From positions 28,804,740 to 28,868,739 of the forward strand of contig CAIIXF020000009.1 of the NCBI GenBank assembly GCA_903813345.2: 64,000 bases of DNA. Direction: 5' to 3'. The position numbers and the translations under genes are program-made. Positions within the stretch are counted from its first letter, which is position 1, and every line of letters begins with the position of its first letter. Origin of the DNA: Owenia fusiformis (lineage: Eukaryota; Annelida; Polychaeta; Sabellida; Oweniidae). This document shows positions 1 to 57,200 of the stretch, one piece after another. The notes under the pieces were generated by a model. It did no database searches. It saw only the letters and a program-made list of their open reading frames with translations, and was not told the origin of the DNA.

Positions 1-3000
1 GTGGGCTTCACCATATCCGTAACAGCTAGACAGACTATTAGTGGGCTTCACCATATCCCTAACAGCTAGACAGACTATTAGTGGGCTTCACCATATCCGT
101 AACAGCTAGACAGACTATTAGTGGGCTTCACCATATCCCTAACAGCTAGACAGACTATTAGTGGGCTTCACCATATCCCTAACAGCTAGACAAACTATTA
201 GTGGGCTTCACCATATCCCTAACAGCTAGACAGACTATTAGTGGGCTTCACCATATCCCTAACAGCTAGACAAACTATTAGTGGGCTTCACCATATCCCT
301 AACAGCTAGACAGACTATAAGTGGGCTTCACCATATCCCTAACAGCTAGATAGACTATTAGTGGGCTTCACCATATCCCTAACAGCTAGACAAACTATTA
401 GTGGGCTTCACCATATCCCTAAAAGCTAGACAGACTATTAGTGGGCTTCACCATATCCCTAACAGCTAGACAGACTATTAGTGGGCTTCACCATATCCCT
501 AACAGCTAGACAAACTATTAGTGGGCTTCACCATATCCCTAACAGCTAGACAGACTATTAGTGGGCTTCACCATATCCCTAACAGCTAGACAGACTATGA
601 GTGGGCTTCACCATATCCCTAACAGCTAGACAGACTATTAGTGCGCTTCACCATATCCCTAACAGCTAGACAAACTACTAGTGGGCTTCACCATATCCCT
701 AACAGCTAGACAGACTATTAGTGGGCTTCACCATATCCCTAACAGCTAGACAGACTATTAGTGGGCTTCACCATATCCCTAACAGCTAGACAAACTATTA
801 GTGGGCTTCACCATATCCCTAACAGCTAGACAGACTATTAGTGGGCTTCACCATATCCCTAACAGCTAGACAGACTATTAGTGGGCTTCACCATATCCCT
901 AACAGCTAGACAGACTATTAGTGGGCTTCACCATATCCCTAACAGCTAGACAAACTATTAGTGGGCTTCACCATATCCCTAACAGCTAGACAGACTATTA
1001 GTGGGCTTCACCATATCCCTAACAGCTAGACAAACTATTAGTGGGCTTCACCATATCCCTAACAGCGAGACAGACTATTAGTGGGCTTCACCATATCCCT
1101 AACAGCTAGACAAACTATTAGTGGGCTTCACCATATCCCTAACAGCTAGACAAACTATTAGTGGGCTTCACCATATCCCTAACAGCTAGACAGACTATTA
1201 GTGGGCTTCACCATATCCCTAACAGCTAGACAAACTATTAGTGGGCTTCACCATATCCCTAACAGCTAGACAGACTATTAGTGGGCTTCACCATATCCCT
1301 AACAGCTAGACAGACTATTAGTGGGCTTCACCATATCCATAACAGCTAGACAGACTATTAGTGGGCTTCACCATATCCCTAACAGCTAGACAAACTATTA
1401 GTGGGCTTCACCATATCCCTAACAGCTAGACAAACTATTAGTGGGCTTCACCATATCCCTAACAGCTAGACAAACTATTAGTGGGCTTCACCATATCCCT
1501 AACAGCTAGACAAACTATTAGTGGGCTTCACCATATCCCTAACAGCTAGACAAACTATTAGTGGGCTTCACCATATCCCTAACAGCTAGACAAACTATTA
1601 GTGGGCTTCACCATATCCCTAACAGCTAGACAAACTATTAGTGGGCTTCACCATATCCCTAACAGCTAGACAAACTATTAGTGGGCTTCACCATATCCCT
1701 AACAGCTAGACAAACTATTAGTGGGCTTCACCATATCCCTAACAGCTAGACAAACTATTAGTGGGCTTCACCATATCCCTAACAGCTAGACAGACTATAA
1801 GTGGGCTTCACCATATCCCTAACAGCTAGACAAACAATAAGTGGGCTTCACCATATCCCTAACAGCTAGACAAACAATTAGTGGGCTTCATCATATCCCT
1901 AACAGCTAGACAAACTATTAGTGGGCTTCACCATATCCCTAACAGCTAGACAAACTATTAGTGGGCTTCATCATATCCCTAACAGCTAGACAAACTATTA
2001 GTGGGCTTCACCATATCCCTAACAGCTAGACAAACTATTAGTGGGCTTCATCATATCCCTAACAGCTAGACAAACTATTAGTGGGCTTCACCATATCCCT
2101 AACAGCTAGACAAACTATTAGTGGGCTTCACCATATCCCTAACAGCTAGACAAACTATTAGTGGGCTTCACCATATCCCTAACAGCTAGACAGACTATAA
2201 GGGGCTTCACCATATCCCTAACAGCTAGACAAACTATTAGTGGGCTTCACCATATCCCTAACAGCTAGACAAACTATTAGTGGGCTTCACCATATCCCTA
2301 CAAGCTAGACAAACTATTAGTGGGCTTCACCATATCCCTAACAGCTAGACAGACTATAAGTGGGTTTCACCATATCCCTAACAGCTAGACAGACTATTAG
2401 TGGGCTTCACCATATCCCTAACAGCTAGACAGACTATTAGTGGGCTTCACCATATCCCTAACAGCTAGACAAACTATTAGTGGGCTTCACCATATCCCTA
2501 ACAGCTAGACAGACTATAAGTGGGCTTCACCATATCCCTAACAGCTAGACAAACTATTAGTGGGCTTCACCATATCCCTAACAGCTAGACAGACTATTAG
2601 TGGGCTTCACCATATCCGTAACAGCTAGACAGACTATTAGTGGGCTTCACCATATCCCTAACAGCTAGACAGACTATTAGTGGGCTTCACCATATCCGTA
2701 ACAGCTAGACAGACTATTAGTAGGCTTCACCATATCCCTAACAGCTAGACAGACTATTAGTGGGCTTCACCATATCCCTAACAGCTAGACAAACTATTAG
2801 TGGGCTTCACCATATCCCTAACAGCTAGACAAACTATTAGTGGGCTTCACCATATCCTTAACAGCTAGACAGACTATTAGTGCGCTTCACCATATCCCTA
2901 ACAGCTAGACAAACTACTAGTGGGCTTCACCATATCCCTAACAGCTAGACAGACTATTAGTGGGCTTCACCATATCCCTAACAGCTAGACAGACTATTAG

Positions 3001-4583
3001 TGGGCTTCACCATATCCCTAACAGCTAGACAAACTATTAGTGGGCTTCACCATATCCCTAACAGCTAGACAGACTATTAGTGGGCTTCACCATATCCCTA
3101 ACAGCTAGACAGACTATTAGTGGGCTTCACCATATCCCTAACAGCTAGACAGACTATTAGTGGGCTTCACCATATCCCTAACAGCTAGACAAACTATTAG
3201 TGGGCTTCACCATATCCCTAACAGCTAGACAGACTATAAGGGGCTTCACCATATCCCTAACAGCTAGACAAACTATTAGTGGGCTTCACCATATCCCTAA
3301 CAGCTAGACAAACTATTAGTGGGCTTCACCATATCCCTAACAGCTAGACAAACTATTAGTGGGCTTCACCATATCCCTAACAGCTAGACAGACTATAAGT
3401 GGGTTTCACCATATCCCTAACAGCTAGACAGACTATTAGTGGGCTTCACCATATCCCTAACAGCTAGACAAACTATTAGTGGGCTTCACCATATCCCTAA
3501 CAGCTAGACAAACTATTAGTGGGCTTCACCATATCCCTAACAGCTAGACAGACTATTGGTGGGCTTCACCATATCCCTAACAGCTAGACAAACTATTAGT
3601 GGGCTTCACCATATCCCTAACAGCTAGACAGACTATTAGTGGGCTTCACCATATCCCTAACAGCTAGACAGACTATAAGTGGGCTTCACCATATCCCTAA
3701 CAGCTAGACAAACCATAAGTGGGCTTCACCATATCCCTAACAGCTAGACAAACTATTAGTGGGCTTCACCATATCCCTAACAGCTAGACAGACTATAAGT
3801 GGGCTTCACCATATCCTTAACAGCTAGACAGACTATTAGTGGGCTTCACCATATCCCTAACAGCTAGACAGACTATAAGTGGGCTTCACCATATCCCTAA
3901 CAGCTAGACAGACTATTAGTGGGCTTCACCATATCCCTAACAGCTAGACAGACTATTAGTGGGCTTCACCATATCCCTAACAGCTAGACAGACTATTAGT
4001 GGGCTTCACCATATCCCTAACAGCTAGACAGACTATTAGTGGGCTTCACCATATCCCTAACAGCTAGACAAACTATTAGTGGGCTTCACCATATCCCTAA
4101 CAGCTAGACAAACTATTAGTGGGCTTCACCATATCCTTAACAGCTAGACAAACTATTAGTGGGCTTCACCATATCCCTAACAGCTAGACAAACTATTAGT
4201 GGGCTTCACCATATCCCTAACAGCTAGACAAACTATTAGTGGGCTTCACCATATCCCTAACAGCTAGACAAACTATTAGTGGGCTTCACCATATCCTTAA
4301 CAGCTAGACAAACTATTAGTGGGCTTCACCATATCCTTAACAGCTAGACAAACTATTAGTGGGCTTCACCATATCCCTAACAGCTAGACAAACTATTAGT
4401 GGGCTTCACCATATCCTTAACAGCTAGACAAACTATTAGTGGGCTTCACCATATCCCTAACAGCTAGACAAACTATTAGTGGGCTTCACCATATCCCTAA
4501 CAGCTAGACAAACTATTAGTGGGCTTCACCATATCCTTAACAGCTAGATGGACTATTAGTGGGCTTCACCATATCCTTAACAA
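1..4583. repeat. 40-bp satellite array, about 114 copies
   Basis: Head-to-tail 40-bp units beginning GTGGGCTTCACCATATCC run from the left edge to 4583, where the last copy diverges. Units are over 90% identical; recurrent variants are CAGACT/CAAACT, TATTAG/TATAAG and CCCTAA/CCGTAA/CCTTAA. Two units are 39 bp (around 2201 and 3240). The array lies inside a TBCD intron and ends about 30 bp from a 5' splice site at 4615. No open reading frame persists through it. The true length is unknown because it is cut by the window edge. Confidence 0.98.
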
Positions 4584-4615: not shown

Positions 4616-11472
<6,857 letters not shown>

Positions 11473-11766: not shown

Positions 11767-14700
11767 GTAAGTGAAAAATATTTTACGGAAATCCATTGCC
11801 ACTGTGTCAGGTGACAATGAATAGATCTAGATTTAGAATTATTAATAGTCTTAAAAAGTGATTGCCACTATTTGTTTTGTAGTTATATTTTAAAATATTC
11901 ACTGAACCCTTCACATTTTTGCTAATGACTCCGTGAGGGTACAGGTTATGGTCATCGATTTTTCGCTATCTGTAAATCTCCAAATAGAAATACTGTGTAA
12001 ATAAAACGGCAGTTGTTGTTGTTTTCAGTTTTCTGGGGAAATACAAATTTCATGGGTTGTTGAGTGTTGACACGACCCATCATTTTTACAAATTGACATA
12101 GAAAAACTAATCGCAACTATAACTTCGTTTTTATATACATACCGAATTCTTTTTTGTAATGTGTAATGTTGCAAGTGCACGCCATCATACATGTAGCTTG
12201 TTGAAAGAAATTGTCAAAACGATAAATAAAAAAAATAAAAAAATAAGAGCTAATTTAGATATAAATTTGTAATAGGTCAAAAAGTGCTTTGGATTTTATA
12301 GATAGTGAGCTTATAAAGTGTTAGAATGAAATCAGTTCAACTGTGACTGCTTGAAGTCACAATTTTGTTTTCAAATAAGTGATAATGGCTGAATGAAAAC
12401 ATTGAACCCCATGGCTGATTTTAATCCATTGGATCAAATCTATTTAGATGAGAAAACAAATAATGGGAAGTATTATGCAAAAATAATCAACTAAATAATC
12501 TGGACATGGTTTTCAGAAGAGAAATTACCTACATTTCCTCAAGTAGATGTCATTGTTATTGTAGGTACCTTCATGCCATATTATGTAAAAACCAGACTGT
12601 TACTGAACACAACAGGAGCCTACTGGTAGAGACCCTTCGTTCTATATCAGAGATCCTTATCTGGGGAGACCAGAATGATAGCACTGTCTTTGAGTAAGTG
12701 TCAACATGTTTATAATGTTTTGTTCCATGGATATGGCGATGTCTATATAATAACCAGCATGTATGATATTAATACCAGTGTAATATTTTAATGTTGGTTA
12801 TACCATGCATATATGTAAGGTGGTGATATGATTTTATTGATTTTTACTTGCAGTGAAGAATTGCTTGTTTTAAAAGGATCCCCCCATATAAATAATATGT
12901 TGATTAATTTAAAACTCAAATTTCTTATTAATTTTGGAAATGATCATAAGATAAATACAATATCTTGTACAGTAAACCTGTCTTATCTGAAAGCCATTGG
13001 GACCAGCTAGAAATGTTCGGATAAAGAGGTGTTAAAATTTCGAGGTTTTGCATTTGGAAATATGACTGTTCATTGTTTTAATTGGGAGTTGATCACATTT
13101 CAAAGTTTCTTTAACATGGAGGTTATTGGGAGGAAAAAATGGGACAGAAAAAAGTGTTTAGATTGGGAGGTGTTTAGATCGGGAGGTGTTCTGATTAGCC
13201 AGGTGTTCAAATATACAAGTTTAACTGTACCTTTTCTTGATATTAAATTGATTTTCTTGTTGCTGGCAATATTAACACTTGTTTGCTACAGTCACTTCCA
13301 CTGATGTCGATAAAAAATACATGTATATGATATCAATGAAAATCATAAAATAAAATAAAGATATCACCATTAGTATTCACTGGCTGACTCATTCTGAAAC
13401 TTGGTACAGATTATTCTCAAAAATAAGGTCTGTTTCTGAAATTGAGGTCTAAAAAGCCCCATTTCTATTGCTGAAATATAAAGAAAATAAGGCTCATCTT
13501 ATGAGGGACCAATATCTACCAGTTGTTTTATATGAATTATATTCTTTACTTTTTTAGTTTCTTCTTAGAGAAGAACATGTTGGCGTTCTTCATACGCTAC
13601 ATGAGGCAGAAGTCAGGACGTTACATCTGCGTGCAACTCCTACAGACTCTTAACATTCTGTTTGAGAATATTAGTAATGAGACTTCAGTGTGTAAGTATT
13701 TTATACAATGTTCATTTGTCCTTAGGAGTTTTTCACAAATTCATACAAAATCCTCATTTTTACAATTCTTACTAAAGATGGTTAAACTATGCCAATTTTT
13801 CACCATTCTAATTTTCAAGTTGGTGTAAGCATGGGCTTTCAATTGTTGAAAGCCCATGGTGTAAGTATATAGCATGTCTGGTTGGTGCAATGTTTTCAAT
13901 ATCTTAAGAGGGGTTAGTGCTCTCTTGTTTGAATTCAAGGGAGGTGACTGGTGTTTTATTCTCAAATCCTAGTTGGGGGCATAGTATCAGATCTTGGTGG
14001 ACCTAGCCATAAACATTGAGGATAATATTTCCCTTGTGGATTTGTCACTTAATTTAATTTTTTTGGTTGCTCTATGTACTGAATATAATGTATTTAGTTT
14101 GAACATAAAATTGTTTGAACTTGTGATGTGGCAATGATCTCCTGTTGGTGTTTGGGTTATGAGAAAAAAGGTTCACCAAGATCTTCCTGATTATGAGTAT
14201 AACATAACAGGAAAAATGGTACCATAGCAACTCGCCCTCCTTAAAATCATATTCAGTTTATACAAGAAATACAAGAGTATATTTTTAATCAAATAATGTA
14301 TATTCTAGATTTATAGATATTTATGTGATTTTACAAATTATTATTGAGCAATGTTATTGCTAACTAGCAAAGATAATAGTTTTAGGAAAGACATTCATGA
14401 TGAATGAATCATTAACTGCATGATTATAGGTTCTGTAGGTCAATGATCAAGTGGCCAATCACCTACAAATAAACAACCCAAACCATTCCTTTTATAACAC
14501 AGTGTTTACTCTGTGATAAATTAAACCAGTCATATTCCTAAACACGATTTAAAGTCCCCATATAAAGTTTAAACCACTTTGGCTTATATTGTAGTCTTAC
14601 CCAATGTTATCAAAGTGGGATATGTGAAACATTTTTTTCAAATTTCCAAAAGTGGTTTTTGATAGACTTTTTGTTCCAAAATTTGTGAATTTATTTAGAG

Positions 14701-35639: not shown

Positions 35640-35930
35640 GTTACTGTTATACACCGTGTAAGTTGTTATTGATATAAGCGCAATGCAAGTCACGTGACAT
35701 TATCAATCAAGGCGGGCGGCGGCCTTGTGAACCGAAACTCTAATTGTGTACGATTGAAGAGCAAATACATCAGATAAAACGAGACGAATCGCCATACGGA
35801 TTATTTTATTAATACTGGAACATACGTAGGATACATTGAAGTAATAACAACGTTTGACAAGACTCGAATTTACACTAAAATTGCAAAGGAATTCTAAAAA
35901 GTTATATTGAAAGTTGCTTCCGGATTCAAA
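35640..35930 (+). promoter_or_regulatory. Myosin II heavy chain promoter / 5' leader region
   Basis: Contains a perfect palindromic E-box GTCACGTGAC (35689-35698) followed by the GC-rich GGCGGGCGGCGG (35711-35722), locally unusual in this AT-rich region. The start codon context TCAAAATGGCGG (35926-35937) resembles a YY1-type initiator around an ATG. Transcription start unknown. Confidence 0.5.
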
Positions 35931-45200: not shown

Positions 45201-48200
45201 CAAAATCAACTGAAAAGTGCTAAGAATGATGAAAAACTGCATGATTTTGAATTGATTTTTGTTCAGGGGGGGGGGGGGGCTACAGCCTGAGTTTAATCAT
45301 ATGTTATATATAATCTGAAAAACATGACGTTTGTAGGATTTTAGAGATTTTACCATGGAATATTTTATGATGCATTTACTGTATCAAAATCATATAATTT
45401 GGATGATACTACAGATAATGTTGAAGTGAACACTCTAAATGATCACTATATTCCATTGATAAGAGCTTTGAATTATATTGACTAAACTAAACTTCATATA
45501 TGAATCAGCCAACTGCCCAGGTGCATTCATCAGTTGTACTCTGCCCTCAATATACTGTTCTGTACCATATAGACTACATATCCTGTCCTCAGTAAACCAC
45601 ACCCCTTTAATAGTTACAATTTTCTACCCTTGATACCCCATGCCCTCAATATACCCTGCAGTCAATAACCCTGTCTTCATTAAAAAATGTTTATAATTCT
45701 GAATATTCTATCCTTTATATCTCCTGCAGCTATTTACTCTACCCCTTTGAAATCCTGGATTCATCTTATTGCTTTCACTAATCCTTACCCATAATTCTGA
45801 CCCAAGGACAACTTATCCTCAGGATATCTTTCACACAGACTTTTGTTCCTTATCCAGATTTAGTGAATGCTATTAATTGAAATAATAGACCAATCATTTT
45901 AATAATGAAATTGATAAAACAGACAGCTGAAAAAAGTTATCGGAAATTGCAGTATTAGAGTTGAAGAGATTATCATGATTGTTGGTCTGGTATAGAATGT
46001 CTGTACTCGTATATATAATAATGTACTTCTTTCGTTGACAACTGTTCATCAAAACATGGTACATAAGTCAATGAACTGTAAAATCTGACGAATCTGAATG
46101 CAACTAGGACCAGGCAAAAGTGTTCAGTTAAGCAGGTGTTCACATTTCAATGTTTCTTAATCTGTGATTTATTGAGGCATGTGTTCACATTGAGAGGTGT
46201 TCAGATATACAGGTTTTACTATATAGACTAAGACCCTGAACCCCTGAGGTTGGCCATAAAATTCTCTCTGAAGAATACATGAAAATTTCTGTTGAGAGAT
46301 GTCAAAAGAAGTCAAATCCTTACATAGGGTTCTAGCATATACAACACTTGCATATTTTACATGAAAACATTTTTTACCAAATATGGTATAGAAATGCTAC
46401 CATATAAACATTCCAATCATTGTTTAGCGTACAAATATGAAAGAATCATATCCACAGTGACATTTTTGGAACCAATAAAATCGACCACAATACTCAAAAC
46501 CACAGAATTCAACTACATGACCTATAATTTCCTGTCAAAGTGAGTTTAATCACACACACTGGAGGAATTGATTTATGTGTAGACCTACTTTTGCGATGAA
46601 TCATCTGGTGAAAAAATGAATGTTTGTTAAAGATAGAATTGTAATGTTACTGTATTGTATTATGCTAGGAAATGAGTGAATCATAGATAGATATGATATG
46701 AAGGGAGAATGAGTTCATATATTGCTGACCCGCTCAAAAAGTTGTACTATTTTGAATGATGTATTAATCTTTTATCTGGAAAATAGGTGAAGAATGATAG
46801 GAATGAATATTGATATCTGTTTATATCTGTACTATATGCATGCAATTTCACTTAGGTTCCTTATCTAATTTGTCTGTTTTGCCCTTGATAATGTAGAGAA
46901 AACTGTGTTAATAATGCCATGTTATTCAAGGAGAATGTTGCATAGTTTTTGCAATAGTTCTTTCCTGAGTAAGTTAGTCATGTTACTTATACTTGCATTT
47001 GTATCACTTCATGTCAGATATTTTCTGAGAAATGACCACATCCTCTTCTCTTTGCACGCTCTTCTCTACAGATATATTTTTCATTGGAGAACTTAAAGCA
47101 CAAGATAAATCAAAAAGAAAAAGCAATTAGACTCGCATAATTACTTCTTGGAGATACAGGTGTGGAAATATCCTATTTGATCCACCTTCCTTTTGCTTGT
47201 GTGAAATTAACCTTTTCATATTTGCAGTATAATGTATTGGTGGAACACTTTCGAAGTTCCAGAGGTGTTCTACTTTGACAGGTTTTACTATACATACACT
47301 TTTGATATTTTGAAAATAGAAGGTATTCTATTCTGCTACTGCAGCAAATATCAGACTGAGGGTCATTTGAGGCTTCACATTGAAAGGTCACAAAAGGGAC
47401 TGTATATAAACTGGCATCTGGATCAAAGTAAATAGTCAATATTGTTTTACCTATAGGTATAGTGTCTGCATTTTCTTAACTTGCCCTTTGAATATGATAA
47501 CACTGAAATCGTGCATATAATCCGAAAATAATCATAATTAAAAAGAATGAATTAATAAACAAGAAGGCTCCATATTAAATTGTGTAGAAAATCAGAAAAC
47601 GGCATAGTTTAAGGTATATGGGATAAGAGGAACTTACATGATTGAGTGATATTTCATTCAAAGTACACTATCTTATAAGGTACATTTAGTAGTAGACCAC
47701 AAGTCTGACCAGTCTATTGACCAGACTGTTGTTTGCTGGCCAGATTGTGTGTATTTTCTCTATAGGCTACCAAAATATTTTCAGACCAAATATTTCATTA
47801 TCTTGTTCATACAATTCTTGTGTGTATTTTATATACAATGCGACCTTTTGTATGTGCAACATGCCCTCCGTTATATCTTATGTGCCCTCTAATATGCATA
47901 TTGTGCCCTCTTTTATGAAATTTTGCAGGTCATATTGACCAGATTCTTTGGAACCAGACCAGTAGAATGTTTTCAGATTATACAGAATGCCTCAATAAAT
48001 CGAAAATTAAATAGTTTAGGAATAGTTTCTGATTGTGCTGTAGTTCCTGTATTTAGAACAAATTTGGCCTGTTATCAATTTTATTATGAAGATTAGTGGA
48101 GTCAGGAATTTTATATTGAATGCCAAGTTTATTTGATCATTGAAAATCTGTTGATAAAATGTCAGACCAGTTTAAATAAGTCAATATGAAACATGGAATA

Positions 48201-51200
48201 GAGAGCCTACTTGGTAGTACTTTGAGGCTATGATGGGTAGTTCTTGGTAGTACTATGGGGCAAATTCTGTTTGATATGTTTGGAAGTACTTTTGGGCTAT
48301 GGTGGGTGGTTCTTGGTAGTACTAGGGGAAAATTCTGTTTTATATGTTTGGTAGTACTTTGGGGTTATGATGGGTGGTTCTTGGTAGTACTAGGGGCAAA
48401 TTCTGTTTTATATGTTTGGTAGTACTTTGGGGTTATGATGGGTGGTTCTTGGTAGTACTAGGGGCAAATTCTGTTTTATATGTTTGGTAGTACTTTGGGG
48501 TTATGATGGGTGGTTCTTGGTAGTACTAGGGGCAAATTCTGTTTTATATGTTTGGTAGTACTTTGGGGTTATGATGGGTGGTTCTTGGTAGTACTAGGGG
48601 CAAATTCTGTTTTATATGTTTGGAAGTACTTTTGGGCTATGATGGGTGGTTCTTGGTAGTACTCTGAGGCAAATTCTGTTTGATATGTTTGGTAGTACTT
48701 TGGGGTTATAATCTGTGGTTCTTGGTAGTACTTTGGGGCAAATCCTGTTTTATATGTTTGGTAGTACTTTGGGGTTATAATCTGTGGTTCTTGGTAGTAC
48801 TTTGGGGCAAATTCTGTTTGATATGTTTGGTAGTACTTTGGGGCGATAATCTGTGGTTCTTGGTAGTTTTTTGGGGCAAATTCTGTTTGATATGTTTGGT
48901 AGTACTTTGGGGTTATAATCTGTGGTTCTTGGTAGTACTTTGGGGCAAATTCTGTTTGATATGTTTGGTAGTACTTTGGGGTTATAATCTGTGGTTCTTG
49001 GTAGTACTTTGGGGCAAATTCTGTTTGATATGTTTGGAAGTACTTTGGGGTTATGATGGGTGGTTCTTGGTAGTACTTAGGGGCAAATTCTGTTTGATAT
49101 GTTTGGAAGTACTTTGGGGTTATGATGGGTGGTTCTTGGTAGTACTTTGGGGCAAATTCTGTTTGATATGTTTGGTAGTACTTTGGGGCTATGTATCCTG
49201 AAGCAAGGTATGAAAAATAAATTAGAAAAACTTCATACTTAAAATAAAAATGTTATGTGGTAGAAGAGAAGTGTTCTCTTGAAGTGGGTGTTTCTGTAGG
49301 TGTTCTGTCAGGTGTTCACAATCTGCAATTAATATAAGAATAACCCCTGAATATTTGTGAAAACAAAATTGAACCCAAGACCTTCATATGAGAATCTCAT
49401 TGAAGAACACTTTACCAGAATCTGGAGGTTACATTTCTAGTGTGCAACAGGCTATTAATTAGACACTGAATTAAAGGTTAACCACTTCAGCTTGTTATTA
49501 GTTGTATACAGTGATAACAGGTACATGTTATACAGGTTATATAGGTTATATATGTACTATCATAAGGTAAAATCTCCAGCTTTTTAACAGGGTGCTATAT
49601 TTTTGATTTTTTAATTTGAAGTAGTATTACCCTTTTTTAAGTTTTCCAAGTCGAGTCTCTTACAAAACCTGATAAAAAAGTAAGTCTAATTTTTTTTGTG
49701 ATTTGCCATTTATATTTTTAGTGCCTTGAATGGCAAAGGGTTATGCTCTCATTACAAGAAGCAAAAAGGGCATGTTTTGGTGGTTTAATTCAGTGGTTCT
49801 ACTGAATGACTGATAGAATCTGTGGGATAGCTATCATCATCTACTGTAGTTTGTTATTCCCCACTGAGATTTATCTATGAGTAAACACTTCAAGATTATG
49901 ACCTGAGATAAGTTGATGATTTTTTTACTTTTGATGGAATCAAGTACTTAACATGGTCAAATGGTCAAATACATTATGAACAGTACTTCAGTAACAAGCT
50001 TTATCCAATGTTAATGTACTCAGTATGTGTGTGTAGTATGTAAAGGATGTAAAGTTTAATAATTTCCGCCTTGGAAAGAAGATTGAAAAGTCTGGAATAA
50101 TGAAAATCTTGAAAGTTGTTGTTGGTTCACAGGTTCTTTTTGGCCTTGAGTTTAATTTTTGAATTATCACCCTCGTACACGGATGATGTCCATATCATTC
50201 TACATGAATACATGTATAGTAAAACCTGTCTACTCTGAATGCTACTGGGACCTGCCAAAAGTGGTCGAATTGGCAGGTTTTCACATATTGAAATTTTTAA
50301 CATTGAAATCTACATTATATTTAAAAAATGAAAAAAATGAGATCAAAAAAGAGTTTACAATGTGAGGTATTCAGATCAGAGAGGTGTTCTGATGTAAAAG
50401 TTTTACTGTAGTTATATATTACTCCCCATTACTCTTGCCATCACATATCATGTTGTTTCAATTAACAAGTGAAATATAGGACCACTTGTTTAGAAAATAA
50501 CTGAAAACGGGGACCTGAGTTGCAAAACAACTCTCATGTTGACCTCACTTGCTTCTAAAGATACAGCATTAGGCTATCCAGTAGAAAAAGTTCAAAAAAT
50601 TTATATGTATTCATTTGGACCTGTTTGAACCTCCAAATATTGATTTTGTGGTAAAAAATGTTTCTATAAAGTTGAGTGTTTATGACTTTTTTTATTCTTT
50701 TACTTAACAAGGGAACAAGGGGATATGTCATTTACACCTACTAAAGTCTATGCCTTTTACTATATGGGCTCAATAGATACTAAATCATATGTGAACAAAA
50801 TCTCAAGTTGTTTTTTTAAATGGGAAACTGTAGTAAAACAATTTTAATACATGTAAAGAATGTTTGATTTTGATTTTAGTAGTCAGATTAAGTCCCCTCT
50901 ACATGAAGTGAAAATCTAAGCTGAAACATAAACTACAGTTAACCATGCCTAAAATGAATGTTGCTTTAAGTAGTCATATTGGGAGGGTCCTTTTAAGTTT
51001 TATAGTTGTATAGTTCCTTTTAAGTTAACTTCGTTTTATATTTTATTTTGATTTTCACAAAATACCATTCATAATGCAAGCCTGTACCATATTTGAATCC
51101 ACATTAGATAAAGAGGGACTCTGATGAATCAGAATATACATATATTACTCTGGGAAACATACTTTTCAGTTCAATAGATGCAGGTAACACTGTACTAAAT

Positions 51201-54200
51201 CATAGCATCGTTACTAAAGAGGAAAGCAGTTAGTCTCGCATCAAGCCTTTGTAGATCCCCAAGCACCTGAAGAGGGAGGGGATCTGGAGACTTGACGCAA
51301 GACGCTAGCCATAGTACCCCTATGATAATCATTTCTGATTTGATGCTGATCATCTTAACAATCTCAAATGTAATGATCATATATGGGAGTTTAATTGCTA
51401 ATTCTAGGCAGAAAATGTAATTATTCTGATTAGATATAGGTAAGATCAGAAGACATATCTCTCGTTTGAAGAGTTTATGTGAAGTCAACCTCTTAACAAG
51501 GGTTATCATATTGGGTATGGTGAACTTGAAACTCAGGGAAAGTCATGACTCAGAAAGCAGAGCCAGATGTTAGTCTGGTTAGTCATAGAGTACTTAAATC
51601 TTGAGTCTTCTATCACACAGTTACAATTAGTTGTTTTACCCTAGAGCAGCTTGACCCTGTCTTTTTAGAGTTTTATGCGTTATAATAAAGGATTTGTGTT
51701 CCTTGGATGTATACTTGTACATTTAAGAAGTCTGATAATTTTTATGTTACATGTATCGAGTTTAAGTTTATGTGCTAGGGTTTTGTAATAACTTTTTTCA
51801 TCAGAGTGAAAACGTGGTTAGGCATTATACCAAAATTCAGGTCTTAACTATGTTTTTCATGTGTGTATATGTAATTATATTAAAAATATGTATAACCATT
51901 GCATTCTGAGTTACTGTTTAATATTCATATTCAATATTCAATAGATCGTTAGGATGAATACTGGATATACGAGGGGTGATCCAAAAGTCTTGGACGCCCT
52001 GCTCTAATTTTGTTGGTTTTTGATAAAATTACTTTAAACTTTCCAATGATAAAGACCAACAACCTAACTACTTTGTGTATTAATTTCATGGAGAAATGAT
52101 ATGTATTATGTAGTTTTCTAGACAGTTTTTAACATGGGGACCCTGTCACCCGGAACGGTATTCACACATGACAACTTTCAGCCTTAAATGTTGCCGCCAT
52201 TTGACTTGTTTCGCAAGTCTTGACCACTGTCTCTTTTTGAATTGTGAATGTTAAACCATGTTAGTTTACTTCCTTTCTTACTAGGCAACCAATTAATTGT
52301 GTTTTATTTATAATGTCCCATATGACAATGATCATATCTGTCAAATTCTAAGAAAATGACATCAGACAAACAACCCTCATTCTTGTATCATTTTTGCTCC
52401 AAAATGGCTGCTGAAATGCAGAACATGAAAGAAATCAAAGTGGAACAAAGAATACTACAAGATATTTTCACTATTATTGACCTTTAGCAGCTACTATATG
52501 CACAATACAGTCTAGATATGGCTCTGTGTGATTTTCTACCTTTTTTCGAAGTTGAAAGGAGGGTTGAAAGAAAATGTTTTTTTACTCATTGGATGAGGTT
52601 TAGACTGGCACCCCAGTATCATTTGTATCACATAAGGAATGTCAGTTTCATAAATGTCTTCCATTCATTGGCAAAGCAGTATGAAAAATGGGTTCAAATT
52701 CGTGGAAAATATGTTGAAAAGTAGGTCTTAATATGTGAAGATGATGATAGCAGATGACACTCAGATTGAAAATCGGAAATTCTCTCATATAATGACTGGT
52801 GTTAGGATGTGCACCCGCACCTAAAGTATTTGCCATATTATAACAGTTGTGACGTGATTTGCTATATTTAAAAATACCGTTCCGGGTGGCAGGGACCCAG
52901 TGTTAAAGAATCTTTACCAAAAAGCTAAAATATATTATTTTCTGTTGAAACTTATACACAATGTTGTTAAGATGTTGATCTTTATTAGGAGGCCCCCCGA
53001 AGGGGCCTCCTATCAATTTTGTAGATATTATTATTATTCTTTATTATTAGACTCCAGATTGAAAATCTGGAGTCTATTGTTTTTGCCTGTTTTCTTTATT
53101 ATTATTATTATTCCTCCTCACCAAATTTCTCGTCAACTATAACAGCTTACTTAATCCAACTTACATGGTTAACTAAGGACTGTATCCGGCTTTCTGGGAA
53201 ATTAGGTCAAATTTCTATCTAGGTCATAGGTCAAGAACTAGGTCAAATCGTTGATTTTCACTAATTCACCACTTTTCTCAGTCGTCTTTCAATATTTTTG
53301 CTCCGGTTTTTTTTCATCATGTTTCTTGGAAAAACCGCTAATTCCGTAAGGCAAATCATTTTTTGATTACTCTTACCGATTTTGAGATATTGCGTCCGAA
53401 AAGTAGGTCAGAACAAAAAACTCTCCAAATTCAACATGAGAGTTATGAAATAAGTGTAGAATGATCTCAGGAATCCGAATCTGCAAACCAAATTTCGATC
53501 GGACTTCCGGTTCGGAAGTTATGGCGTTTTGAAAGCTCAAAAATAGCTAAATTTGGTGCCTATGTTAAGTCAATGGGAAAAAAGACTTTTTCGAAGTGTA
53601 AAATACAGGATATAGACTGAGTACAGCTTAACATAATGAATGCTTATAAAAGAAGGGGACCTCAAAAGCTACATAGTTTCAAAATTTGGACACCAAAATG
53701 CCTAGGTCAAAATCTAGGTCAAATTCATAGTGTTTCCTTATTTTTACGATTCTGACACTACACTTGAATAACTTACTTCCAAATTTTGTATACAGGTAGC
53801 AAAGAGTGTGCTAATAGGGTTAGGCTTTTGCCGTCAGAAAGTATTTTGACCCACTTTTGAGATATGGTGTCCGAAAAGTAGGTCAAAATAAAAAGTTCTC
53901 CAGATCCAACGTATGAGTTATGAATTAAGGGTAGAATTTTCCCAGGAATCCGAATCTGCAAACCAAATTTCGATCCGACTTCCGGTTCGGAAGTTATGGC
54001 GTGTCCAAAAAGTAGGTCAAAATAAAAAAAATCCAAATTTAACGTATGAGTTATGAATTAGGGGTAGAATTTTGTCAGGAATCCAAATCTGCAAACCAAA
54101 TTACGATCCGACTTCCGGTTCGAAAGTTATGGGGTTTTGAAAGCTCAAAAATCGCTAAATTTGGTGCCCCATGTTATGTCAATGAGAAAAAGGATTTTTT

Positions 54201-57200
54201 GAAGTGTAAAATACCAGATAAAGACTGAGTACAGCTTAATATTCTGAAAGCCTATAAAAGGAGGGGACCTCGAAGGCTATCTAGCTTTAAAATTTGGACG
54301 CAAAAATGCCTTGGTCAAAATCTAGGTCAAATTCATAGTTTTTCCTTATTTTTGCGATTCTGACATTACACTTTAAGGATTTGCTTCAAAATTTTGTATA
54401 CAGGTAGCAAAGAGTGTGCTTATAGTGTTAGCCTTCTGCCGTCAGAAAGTTTTTTGACCCACTTTTGAGATATGGTGTCCGAAATGTAGGTCAAAATAAA
54501 AAATTATCCAAATTTAACGTATGAGTTATGAATTAAGGGTAGAATTTTCTCAGGAATCAGAATCTTTAAACCAAATTTCGATCTAACTTCTGGTTAGATA
54601 GTTATAGCGGTTTGAAGTCTCGAAAAGTCGATATGATGATATCCCCATGTTAAGCTAATAGAGTCGAAGATAGCCTTCTTAAAAGTTGTCTAAATGTCTA
54701 TATTCTAGCTGACTCAGCTTATTCTGAATGACTCAGCTTACAAGTTCTGGATGACTCAGCTTAAAAAAATGTGAAATCTGGAGTCTTAAATTGAACTTGT
54801 TCAATTTACATGTCTAGTTATTATTTATTCTTCCTCCCTCTTTTTCTCCTACTTCCAACTACCTTTCAACTAGGTACTACATAGTCCTACTAGGGACCTG
54901 GGCTGAACTTGGCGGGAAAGGAATTTTTATCTAGGTCAAGGTCAAAGGTCAAAATCTAGGTCAAATCTAAGTTTTTTTCAAGTTTCTCAAATCCTGACAC
55001 TACACTTAAATATTTTTGGCTGAATTTTTGCACACAGATAGATATTAGTATTCTATTAGTCTTAGCCTTTTGCCGTCTAGAGAAATTGTGCCTAGATTTT
55101 GAGATATTGAAGGTCAAAAAAAGGTCAAAAAAGGTCTTTTTTCAACTTGCTTCAAATTGACCAAATTTTTTTTTAAAACTCATCTACAAGTTCTCAGGAT
55201 TCCAAATCTGACCTTACTTTTGACCTTTGACCTTTGGTTGACCTTCATTGACCTCAGAAAGATCAAAAAAGTTGATTTTTCAAATCGATTTTCTGGATTC
55301 AAATTTAGGTATATTTATTCACAAAAGATCTTCTGAGGTCTAAAAAAGTAAAATTTGCAAGGTCAAAGGTCAAGGTCATCAAAAGAAATCACAAACTGTG
55401 TTTTCTAAGTTTCTCAAAATTGGAGACTACAAATCAATTTTTTTTACTGAAAGTCAGAATATATATTCCTCTAAAGGTTCTACACATATTAGCAATTGAC
55501 TATTTATTAAAATTTTGCTCCAGTTTTGAGATATTAGAACTCAAAAACTGAAAAAAGGTCAAATTTCAAAAATTTTCAAGGTCAAATTTCAACTTGCTCT
55601 AAATTGACCAAACTTTTTTTAAAAAAGCATCTACAAGATCTCAGGAACTCAAATCTGACCTTAGTTTTGAACTATGACCTTTAGTTGACCTTCAGTGACC
55701 TTCGAAAGGTCAAAAAAGTTAATTTTTCAAATTGATTTTCTGGATTAAAATTTAGGTTTCTTCAATCAGAAAAGATATACTGAGGTCTAAAAAGTAAAAC
55801 CTGTAAGGTCAAAGGTCAAGGTCATCAAACAAGATCACAAACTGTGTTTTCTAAGTTTCTCAAAGTTTGTGACTACAAATCAATATTTTTGAATTAAAGT
55901 CAGGATATATATTCCTCTAAAGGTTTTACACATAATAACAATTGATTATCTATTAAAATTCTGCACCAGTTTTGAGATATTGGACCTCAAAAACTGAAAA
56001 AGGTCTAATGTTGAAATTTTTCAAGGTCAAATTTCACATTGCTTCAAATTGACCAAACTTTTTTTTAAAAATCATCTACAAGATGCCTGGAGTTCATATA
56101 TGTCCTTGTATTTAAGATTTGACCTTTGGCTGACCTTTAAATGTTCAAAACAGCCTACGGGGCCTCCGTAAGATTGCTTGCAATCTTCTAGTTATCTGAA
56201 AGTTTCGTGCAATTATATTAGAAAATAGCAAAGTTAGAGTGGAGCGTCCAAGACTTTTGGATCACCCCTCGTATTGGCTAATTTGATGATGTTGTAGGTA
56301 GAAATTTGACTGTGCAAAAACAGGATTAGTTAATGAAAACACAGAATGAATTTTTAAAAGCCCATCCTATGATCCTGAACATCATTAACATCATCAGCAT
56401 CATCATCTGTGAAAAATGATATAGGATGTTTCTATTTTTCTAAAATTCTATTATTGTCTTGTCAGTGGGAAGATGTAGATAACAATTCTGTTTATTGATT
56501 GAATAAGTACATATTCAATTTATATGCTATATAATTTAATTAACTGTAAGCATTTGCAGAATGATGCCCTGTTCAGTTATTATCTGCCTGTTTATAACAT
56601 TATTCCCTATTTTCTGGGATACTTTAGCAAACTCAGTGTGAACATCTAAAAAAGATTACGAAGTGTCCATTGAGAATGTGAATGTTGGTAATAGTTGATT
56701 TTAAGGTCAAAACTAAATGTGCTGATTAACAGGTAGTTGCAAGTTCTCTGCAACTACCTGTTATGAATAAATGAAGCATTCAGCTTGGTTAGAGGTATTC
56801 CATGTAACTTTGCATTCGACTGAGTTAGGAATATAACATTGTGGTAATCCACGCCCTCTCCATCTCTATCCTTCTGGATGCGATGCAACAGAGAGAGATG
56901 CTATGAGTATCAGAATGGGAATATAACATTTAGTGGATTTAAATGTCAAAGTGACAAAACTCTATGGGAAAAGTCTCTATGTGAAATGAACACCACCGTG
57001 AATGTCAAACCACTGAGCAACTAAACAAGTCAAAAGTGTCAGATGCTGGTATGCCTCAGCTCAAATTTGAGGTTTTTGGGGTAGAACAACATAACACAAC
57101 AACATAACCTTCTTATTAAAAGATTTTTGAACAAACATAAATATAGTTGCCAAACTTGCCATTCTCATATTCAGCCCCTCTCTGTCGGCTTGCATTATGC

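Follow-up and report, generated by a model that had tools for sequence, protein, structure and literature searches.

Two mobile elements, one inserted in the other, lie on the forward strand of a 64,000-nucleotide stretch of the Owenia fusiformis genome (GenBank assembly GCA_903813345.2, contig CAIIXF020000009.1, positions 28,804,740 to 28,868,739). We call this whole stretch the window and use its own numbering below. With a probability of about 0.9, both elements are non-autonomous rolling-circle transposons with ends of the Helitron2 or Helentron type, that is, Helentron-associated interspersed elements (HINEs), and the inner one sits in the 5′ microsatellite of the outer one. They have the same anatomy and partly homologous bodies, and no transposase can be recognised in the pair. 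We infer that they are moved by a Rep-helicase (an HUH enzyme) encoded elsewhere.

An initial annotation of the window had proposed that two mobile elements are nested and have the same end layout, and had linked them to Helitrons and Helentrons. Both points are supported, and the layout matches the printed description of Helitron2 (PMC3627910; here and below, statements about published systems rest on excerpts of the papers cited). The same annotation did not recognise the layout as a standard description, but an asymmetric terminal inverted repeat (ATIR) together with 5′ and 3′ hairpins is in print for Helitron2 (PMC3627910). Hence, the end layout of the pair is an already published plan and not an undescribed arrangement. 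The elements are ordinary ones, with the modest extras of a contrast between loops and stems and of a CTAG end on a Helitron2 plan.

Anatomy of the nested pair

The outer element spans positions 52986 to 56191 on the forward strand and is about 1436 bp long without the inner one. It opens with a hairpin (52986 to 53012) that folds into an 11-bp stem with the loop CCGAA, TAGGAGGCCCC-CCGAA-GGGGCCTCCTA. The 5′ ATIR, GGAGGCCCC (52988 to 52996), is 9 nt long and starts 2 nt from the 5′ end. A leader with a TTATT microsatellite follows (53013 to 53047) and is the site of the inner insertion. Its tandem repeat has about two copies (55131 to 56137; unit about 447 bp, 85% identical). Next comes the 3′ ATIR, GGGGCCTCC, a copy of the right arm of the 5′ hairpin at 56159 to 56167, 24 nt inside the 3′ end. 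The 3′ hairpin AAGATTG-CTTG-CAATCTT (56170 to 56187) starts 2 nt past this ATIR, and the element ends in CTAG (56188 to 56191), followed by TTATC.

The inner element (53048 to 54817; 1770 bp) has the same type and orientation and sits in the outer TTATT run, 35 nt past the outer 5′ hairpin. Its own 5′ hairpin, TAGACTCCAGATT-GAA-AATCTGGAGTCTA (53048 to 53076), folds into a 13-bp stem with the loop GAA; the 5′ ATIR AGACTCCAGATT (53049 to 53060) is 12 nt long and lies 1 nt from the 5′ end. The body holds two tandem copies of a unit of about 609 bp (53394 to 54609; 87% identical) with AGGTCA words. The right arm recurs as the 3′ ATIR AATCTGGAGTCT (54775 to 54786), 31 nt inside the 3′ end, and is followed with a gap of 0 nt by the hairpin TAAATTGAA-CTTG-TTCAATTTA (54787 to 54808). 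CTAG (54814 to 54817) closes the element, and TTATTATT follows.

Both elements can be read off in one order: first TTAT, T, 5′ ATIR, loop, complement, TTATT microsatellite and CCTCC, then an AGGTCA-rich body with about two tandem units, and finally 3′ ATIR, CTTG hairpin, CTAG and TTAT. The hairpins, lone right-arm copies, CTTG hairpins and CTAG ends that the initial annotation had listed were all found where it had placed them. Its claim that one element entered the other at a TTATT run is supported by a similar microsatellite stretch in both.

The AGGTCA word itself is unevenly spread over the window. Counting both strands, it occurs 38 times in the two elements (11.9 per kb) and 34 times in the rest (0.56 per kb), and all five AGGTCA-N-AGGTCA sites of the window, again on both strands, lie inside the elements. 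We take these direct repeats to resemble nuclear-receptor DR1 sites.

The layout goes beyond chance. We defined it strictly: a hairpin whose loop ends in GAA comes first, then an 8-mer of its right arm, no more than about 25 nt ahead of a CTTG hairpin, and then CTAG at most 12 nt after that CTTG hairpin. This combination occurs twice in the window and in none of 500 dinucleotide shuffles; each hairpin type alone averages 0.25 in the shuffles. A scan of both strands of the 64 kb finds just two perfect hairpins whose 3–5-nt loop ends in GAA and whose arm is at least 8, and these are the two 5′ hairpins. Likewise, the only two perfect hairpins with a CTTG loop and an arm of at least 6 are the two 3′ hairpins. 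Elsewhere in the window, exact copies of GGGGCCTCC and AATCTGGAGTCT are found only within the 5′ hairpins. A looser layout with free loops gives 9 rows in the window against 4 rows in 200 shuffles if a CTRR end is demanded, and 8 against 8 rows in 200 shuffles if it is not; the window rows are redundant rows of the same two elements, and those with CTRR are all on the forward strand.

Further hairpins at 13830, 25728, 26063, 10694 and 56727 have no GAA-ended loop and are absent from the layout scans. We rejected those at 13830, 25728 and 26063, whose surroundings we read, and the one at 10694 as element ends, their loops not ending in GAA.

Arms, loops and bodies

The 5′ arms of the two elements are unlike, their bodies are partly homologous, and the loops and CTAG are common to both. 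A global alignment performs badly, with 651 identities in 1355 aligned columns, probably due to repeat units that are out of register, and we therefore used local alignments. The 5′ body parts, from the microsatellite past CTAGGTCAAATC, align with a score of 55, where 1000 shuffles reach at most 35; some of this score stems from the TTATT run, which shuffling destroys. For this reason a stretch of 195 columns in the repeats, with a score of 101 against a shuffle maximum of 31 in 1000, is the better evidence of homology. Counted from the respective 5′ ends, the local alignment begins 44 nt into the inner element and 51 nt into the outer one. Before this point, by eye, the two have only TAG, GAA and CTA in common.

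The earlier statement that the arms differ completely is right for the 5′ arms, except for the basal TAG/CTA, and too strong for the 3′ hairpin stems, which have ATTG in common. Similarly, the loop described as GAA is the loop of the inner 5′ hairpin, whereas the best fold of the outer one has the loop CCGAA. Folding the outer hairpin around GAA instead, as C4-GAA-G4 with a bulge, costs 5.2 kcal/mol relative to the CCGAA fold, and we discarded this alternative.

How could the 5′ arms have become so different? One could argue that whole end modules were exchanged between families, instead of three arm copies changing gradually to match. Such an exchange leaves the elements in the same class and is compatible with our reading of them; we would give it even odds. 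The HINEs of the oyster, which are combinations of flanks and arrays, speak for it. Against it, GAA, CTTG, CTAG and the basal TAG/CTA are shared despite the unlike arms, so that an exchange needs end modules of common origin or a shared constraint. Common descent of the loops is in itself enough to explain that the pair shares them.

Folded alone as DNA, the 5′ hairpins are clearly more stable than expected (outer −13.0 kcal/mol and inner −11.6 kcal/mol, each with 0 of 200 shuffles as low). The 3′ regions reach −6.8 kcal/mol in the outer element (2 of 200 shuffles as low) and −5.2 kcal/mol in the inner one (7 of 200), and the z-scores of the isolated 3′ strands are −2.1 and −2.9 only. DNA mini-hairpins with GAA or C-TT-G loops are unusually stable. 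The energy calculation gives no support to the idea that the loops were chosen for stability: on the inner 5′ stem all 64 triloops tie, and on either 3′ stem CTTG is outscored by 192 of 256 tetraloops. It follows from the tie that no triloop-specific bonus was applied to these stems by the DNA parameter set. A literature search on conserved loops in Helitron2 returned nothing on that point in the titles and abstract openings of the matches listed. Unlike stem arms under identical small loops are a useful hint on how such ends may be recognised.

Transposon class, target site and mobilisation

The longest stop-to-stop frame within the two elements measures 94 amino acids, and the three longest frames have no match in Pfam at an E value of 0.001. 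Consequently, we take the elements to be non-autonomous; no Rep or helicase was recognised in either of them. Rfam gave 0 matches at gathering score across the whole window. We also searched beyond the window. A 16-mer of the outer 3′ end matched six loci in viral contigs, none of which, by eye, is preceded by the left arm of the hairpin. A 20-mer of an element body matched five loci there, the best element match being 21–28 nt long with an E value of about 5e-4; at two of the five (L008 and L009), inspected in part, the match lies within what we read as phage-like coding sequence, which is unannotated. The matches of both patterns look like chance. A blastn search against phages and plasmids gave no match.

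Both elements start at TTAT^T, with T as the left neighbour if the ends are set as here. The elements probably open with the T that comes directly behind TTAT, and the ends may shift by a few bases. The TTAT flanks of the outer element, which are host sequence, could reflect a T-rich target TTAT^TTAT, extra T's owned by the element or a 4-bp duplication. Helitron2 and Helentron elements insert in T-rich sites (TT, TTTT^T/C or TNAT^T), as a rule with no duplication of the target. Published relatives differ in this respect: no target modification was found in the excerpted study of mite HINEs (PMC4067079), and variable duplications of 7–19 bp are given for the Chlamydomonas CRe elements of Helitron2 (PMC3627910).

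The elements could instead be miniature cut-and-paste DNA transposons with a 4-bp TTAT target duplication, which would account for the TTAT on both sides of both elements. At the inner joint, too, the microsatellite is by eye more regular with one TTAT removed, and then forms a cleaner TTA run, like that within the inner element itself. The inverted repeats do not fit this explanation. They are not symmetric: the 3′ copies lie 24 and 31 nt inside the element and are separated from its end by a hairpin, and at the 5′ side the repeat occurs twice, as the two arms of a hairpin. In addition, Helentrons are reported to use T-rich targets (PMC4067079, PMC7492417). We consider cut-and-paste elements highly improbable.

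A canonical Helitron1 origin, in which the 5′ hairpins would be incidental, is just as hard to credit. Both elements have a 3′ hairpin and CTAG (a CTRR motif) followed by T, as in Helraiser. Helitron1 elements begin with 5′-TC, however, and ours with TAG or AG; Helitron1 inserts between A and T, but the left neighbour here is T with the ends as set; and the 5′ hairpin and ATIR found in both of our elements are absent from the excerpted description of Helitron1 (PMC3627910). The Helitron1 explanation is largely contradicted already.

A third possibility, which we regard as barely credible, is that the pair are non-autonomous relatives of another HUH system, such as IS200/IS605-like Y1 elements or Replitrons. 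The TTAT-like target is reminiscent of the IS200/605 family. Hairpin ends are known for that family as well (PMC3627910). An ATIR with a 3′ hairpin right behind it is the Helitron2 plan, and this argues for Helitron2-type elements instead.

How might Helitron2-type elements such as these move? The nicking, peeling, termination and circle steps are modelled on Helraiser (PMC4778049) and FoHeli1 (PMC5148889). A Rep-helicase supplied from elsewhere would nick TTAT^T beside the 5′ hairpin. One strand would be peeled off as far as the 3′ end, where the CTTG hairpin would mark termination and CTAG the cut. The ends would then be joined into a circle, which would insert at another T-rich site. In single-stranded form, or where the circle closes, the 5′ ATIR could pair with its neighbour and form the GAA hairpin, or it could pair with the 3′ ATIR and form an arm around the CTTG hairpin and the joint. 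A switch of this kind, with two states, would need three mutually matching arm copies and no particular sequence, while the enzyme would read the loops and CTAG. For joined ends, the two pairing states come to −17.3 and −16.2 kcal/mol in the inner element and to −20.3 and −14.6 kcal/mol in the outer one; the switch is nearly balanced in the inner element and not in the outer.

One could go a step further and suggest that recognition rests on the GAA loop, the CTTG loop and CTAG, and that the stems need only match each other in three places. A single Rep-helicase could then move families with wholly different arms, the arms would be free to turn over together, perhaps by copying from one another at the circle junction, where the 3′ ATIR is adjacent to the 5′ hairpin, and the GAA shared with FoHeli1 and FoHeli2 would point to an old rule. 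This is a tentative idea, and we think it rather unlikely.

Several observations weigh against the Helitron2 assignment and the account built on it. Each element has TTAT at either end, a possible 4-bp target duplication. Both 3′ ends carry CTAG, a motif reported for Helitron1. Neither a partner coding for Rep or helicase nor a second copy nor an empty site was seen in the viral contigs, phages and plasmids searched. No homology is detectable between the 3′ body parts (62 of 1000 shuffles align as well). Finally, the two pairing states of the outer element are 5.7 kcal/mol apart.

A third element in the window and comparison with known systems

On the reverse strand, from 8102 to about 6233 (the 3′ end is approximate), lies a third, HINE-like element that serves for comparison. 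Its ATIR TATGTCCCCACC belongs to a set of 12-nt subterminal inverted repeats (subTIRs) and has an imperfect local inverted repeat; a second 5′ copy stands at 7904. It also contains a GTCY microsatellite and a satellite-like array of a 162-bp unit repeated 6.4 times, and on its 3′ side the ATIR GGTGGGGACATA and the weak palindrome ACACA-TT-TGTGT. A 198-bp stretch that includes the 5′ end stands twice in tandem. The element starts at TTAT^TA, as the pair does.

The third element has the layout with loops other than GAA and CTTG. The layout is therefore common to different kinds of HINEs in one window, and GAA and CTTG are not universal; in the window, only the AGGTCA-rich pair has them. Fixed GAA and CTTG loops, as initially claimed, are thus a property of these two elements and do not extend to their HINE-like neighbour. 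The evidence for the third element is weaker than that for the pair. Its 5′ region folds moderately (5 of 200 shuffles as low) and its 3′ region no better than chance (68 of 200). A relaxed scan, which looks for an 11-nt ATIR with a mismatched local repeat and a weak palindrome, returns the inner and the third element and misses the outer one with its 9-nt ATIR; it gives 17 hits in 200 shuffles, spread over 15 of the 200. The scan alone is insufficient, and the third element rests also on the GTCY microsatellite and the 162-bp array.

The window holds other features of its own. A tandem array fills positions 1 to 4582 (40-bp unit, 114.6 copies, 97% matches), and another lies at 48211 to 49193 (69-bp unit, 14.3 copies, 94% matches), with a strong GC skew of 0.39 at 48001 to 50000. 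ACCTGTCATTTATTTATGTCCCCAACTGT at 9659 to 9687 and its near reverse complement at 10860 to 10888 bound about 1.2 kb. By eye, a further copy stands at 11070 to 11098, where it forms part of a near direct copy (about 10961 to 11098) of the sequence between about 9550 and 9687. The region from 9659 to 11098 looks like an insertion with terminal inverted repeats or a rearranged repeat. About 0.5 kb past the outer element, a hairpin with a perfect 15-bp stem, TAACAGGTAGTTGCA, and a loop of 7 nt occupies 56727 to 56763. A frame at 35898 to 36386 matches Myosin_N with 53.6 bits (cut-off 27) and the start of Myosin_head with 28 bits, below the cut-off of 33.3; we read it as animal non-muscle myosin II.

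Helitron2 is among the known systems closest to the pair. Its ATIR is 8–15 bp long, lies 0–2 bp from the 5′ end and pairs with downstream nucleotides to form a 5′ hairpin; the 3′ ATIR lies about 20–30 bp inside the 3′ end, with a hairpin directly downstream (PMC3627910). In our pair the ATIRs measure 9 and 12 nt and lie 2 and 1 nt inside the 5′ end and 24 and 31 nt inside the 3′ end, the 5′ hairpin contains the ATIR, the 3′ hairpin follows the 3′ ATIR after 2 and 0 nt, and the 5′ base is T. The pair differs in its CTAG end, in carrying unlike arms on partly homologous bodies and in offering no protein that could be placed in the Helitron2 tree (PMC3627910). For Helitron2 it has also been proposed that pairing between the ATIRs opens the 5′ hairpin when replication ends, and compensatory arm changes are described in two Culex elements (PMC3627910). 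The end pattern proposed in the initial annotation is usable as a detector for Helitron2 and HINE elements. In the literature on HELIANO and HLE2, a description of HLE2 ends was not found among the matches listed.

Helentrons and HINEs have the same repeats under the name of subTIRs (PMC4067079). Helentrons, DINE-1 and the mite HINEs resemble the pair in palindromic subTIRs near the 5′ end, a 3′ stem-loop and, in some copies, tandem repeats, and they insert in T-rich sequence, as the pair probably does. In the mite HINEs, however, the 3′ subTIR lies about 38–60 nt inside, against 24 and 31 nt in the pair (PMC4067079), and no partner with an endonuclease was seen for the pair in the collections searched. 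The Cg_HINE elements of the Pacific oyster run through subTIR, inverted repeat, microsatellite, tandem repeats, subTIR and palindrome, much as our elements do, and insert at T-rich sites, as the pair probably does. The pair is set apart by perfect stems, a TTATT microsatellite and units of about 609 and 447 bp; GTCY-like microsatellites, as in the third element of the window, occur in 6 of the 11 named Cg_HINEs (PMC7492417). A DINE-like element of a blow fly, with subTIRs, GTCY repeats and a 3′ hairpin, adds nothing decisive (PMC3630058), nor do the excerpts of a paper on oyster satellites add anything decisive for the pair (PMC8268682).

FoHeli1 and FoHeli2 of Fusarium oxysporum share with the pair GAA between 5′ stems at the extreme 5′ end, an ATIR and, with the ends of the pair as set here, insertion after TNAT and before T. 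They differ in a 3′ end that reads ATATTTT and not CTAG, in a 3′ ATIR that is itself in a hairpin, and in having known protein-coding copies (PMC5148889). For FoHeli1, joined-end amplicons were obtained, and rolling-circle amplification did not confirm circles (PMC5148889).

Helraiser and Helibat, which are Helitron1 elements, have a 3′ hairpin and then CTAG, as the pair does, and differ in their 5′ TC (PMC4778049). Helraiser retains about 90% of its activity when its native 3′ loop sits on a foreign stem, while changing the loop together with its closing pair, or exchanging the entire hairpin for a foreign one, is like deleting the hairpin (PMC4778049). The loop outweighed the stem sequence in this test, in line with the shared loops on unlike stems of our pair. 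Two elements are no proof of it. If loops are read in this way in Helitron2 as well, complete divergence of the arms without loss of mobility would have an explanation.

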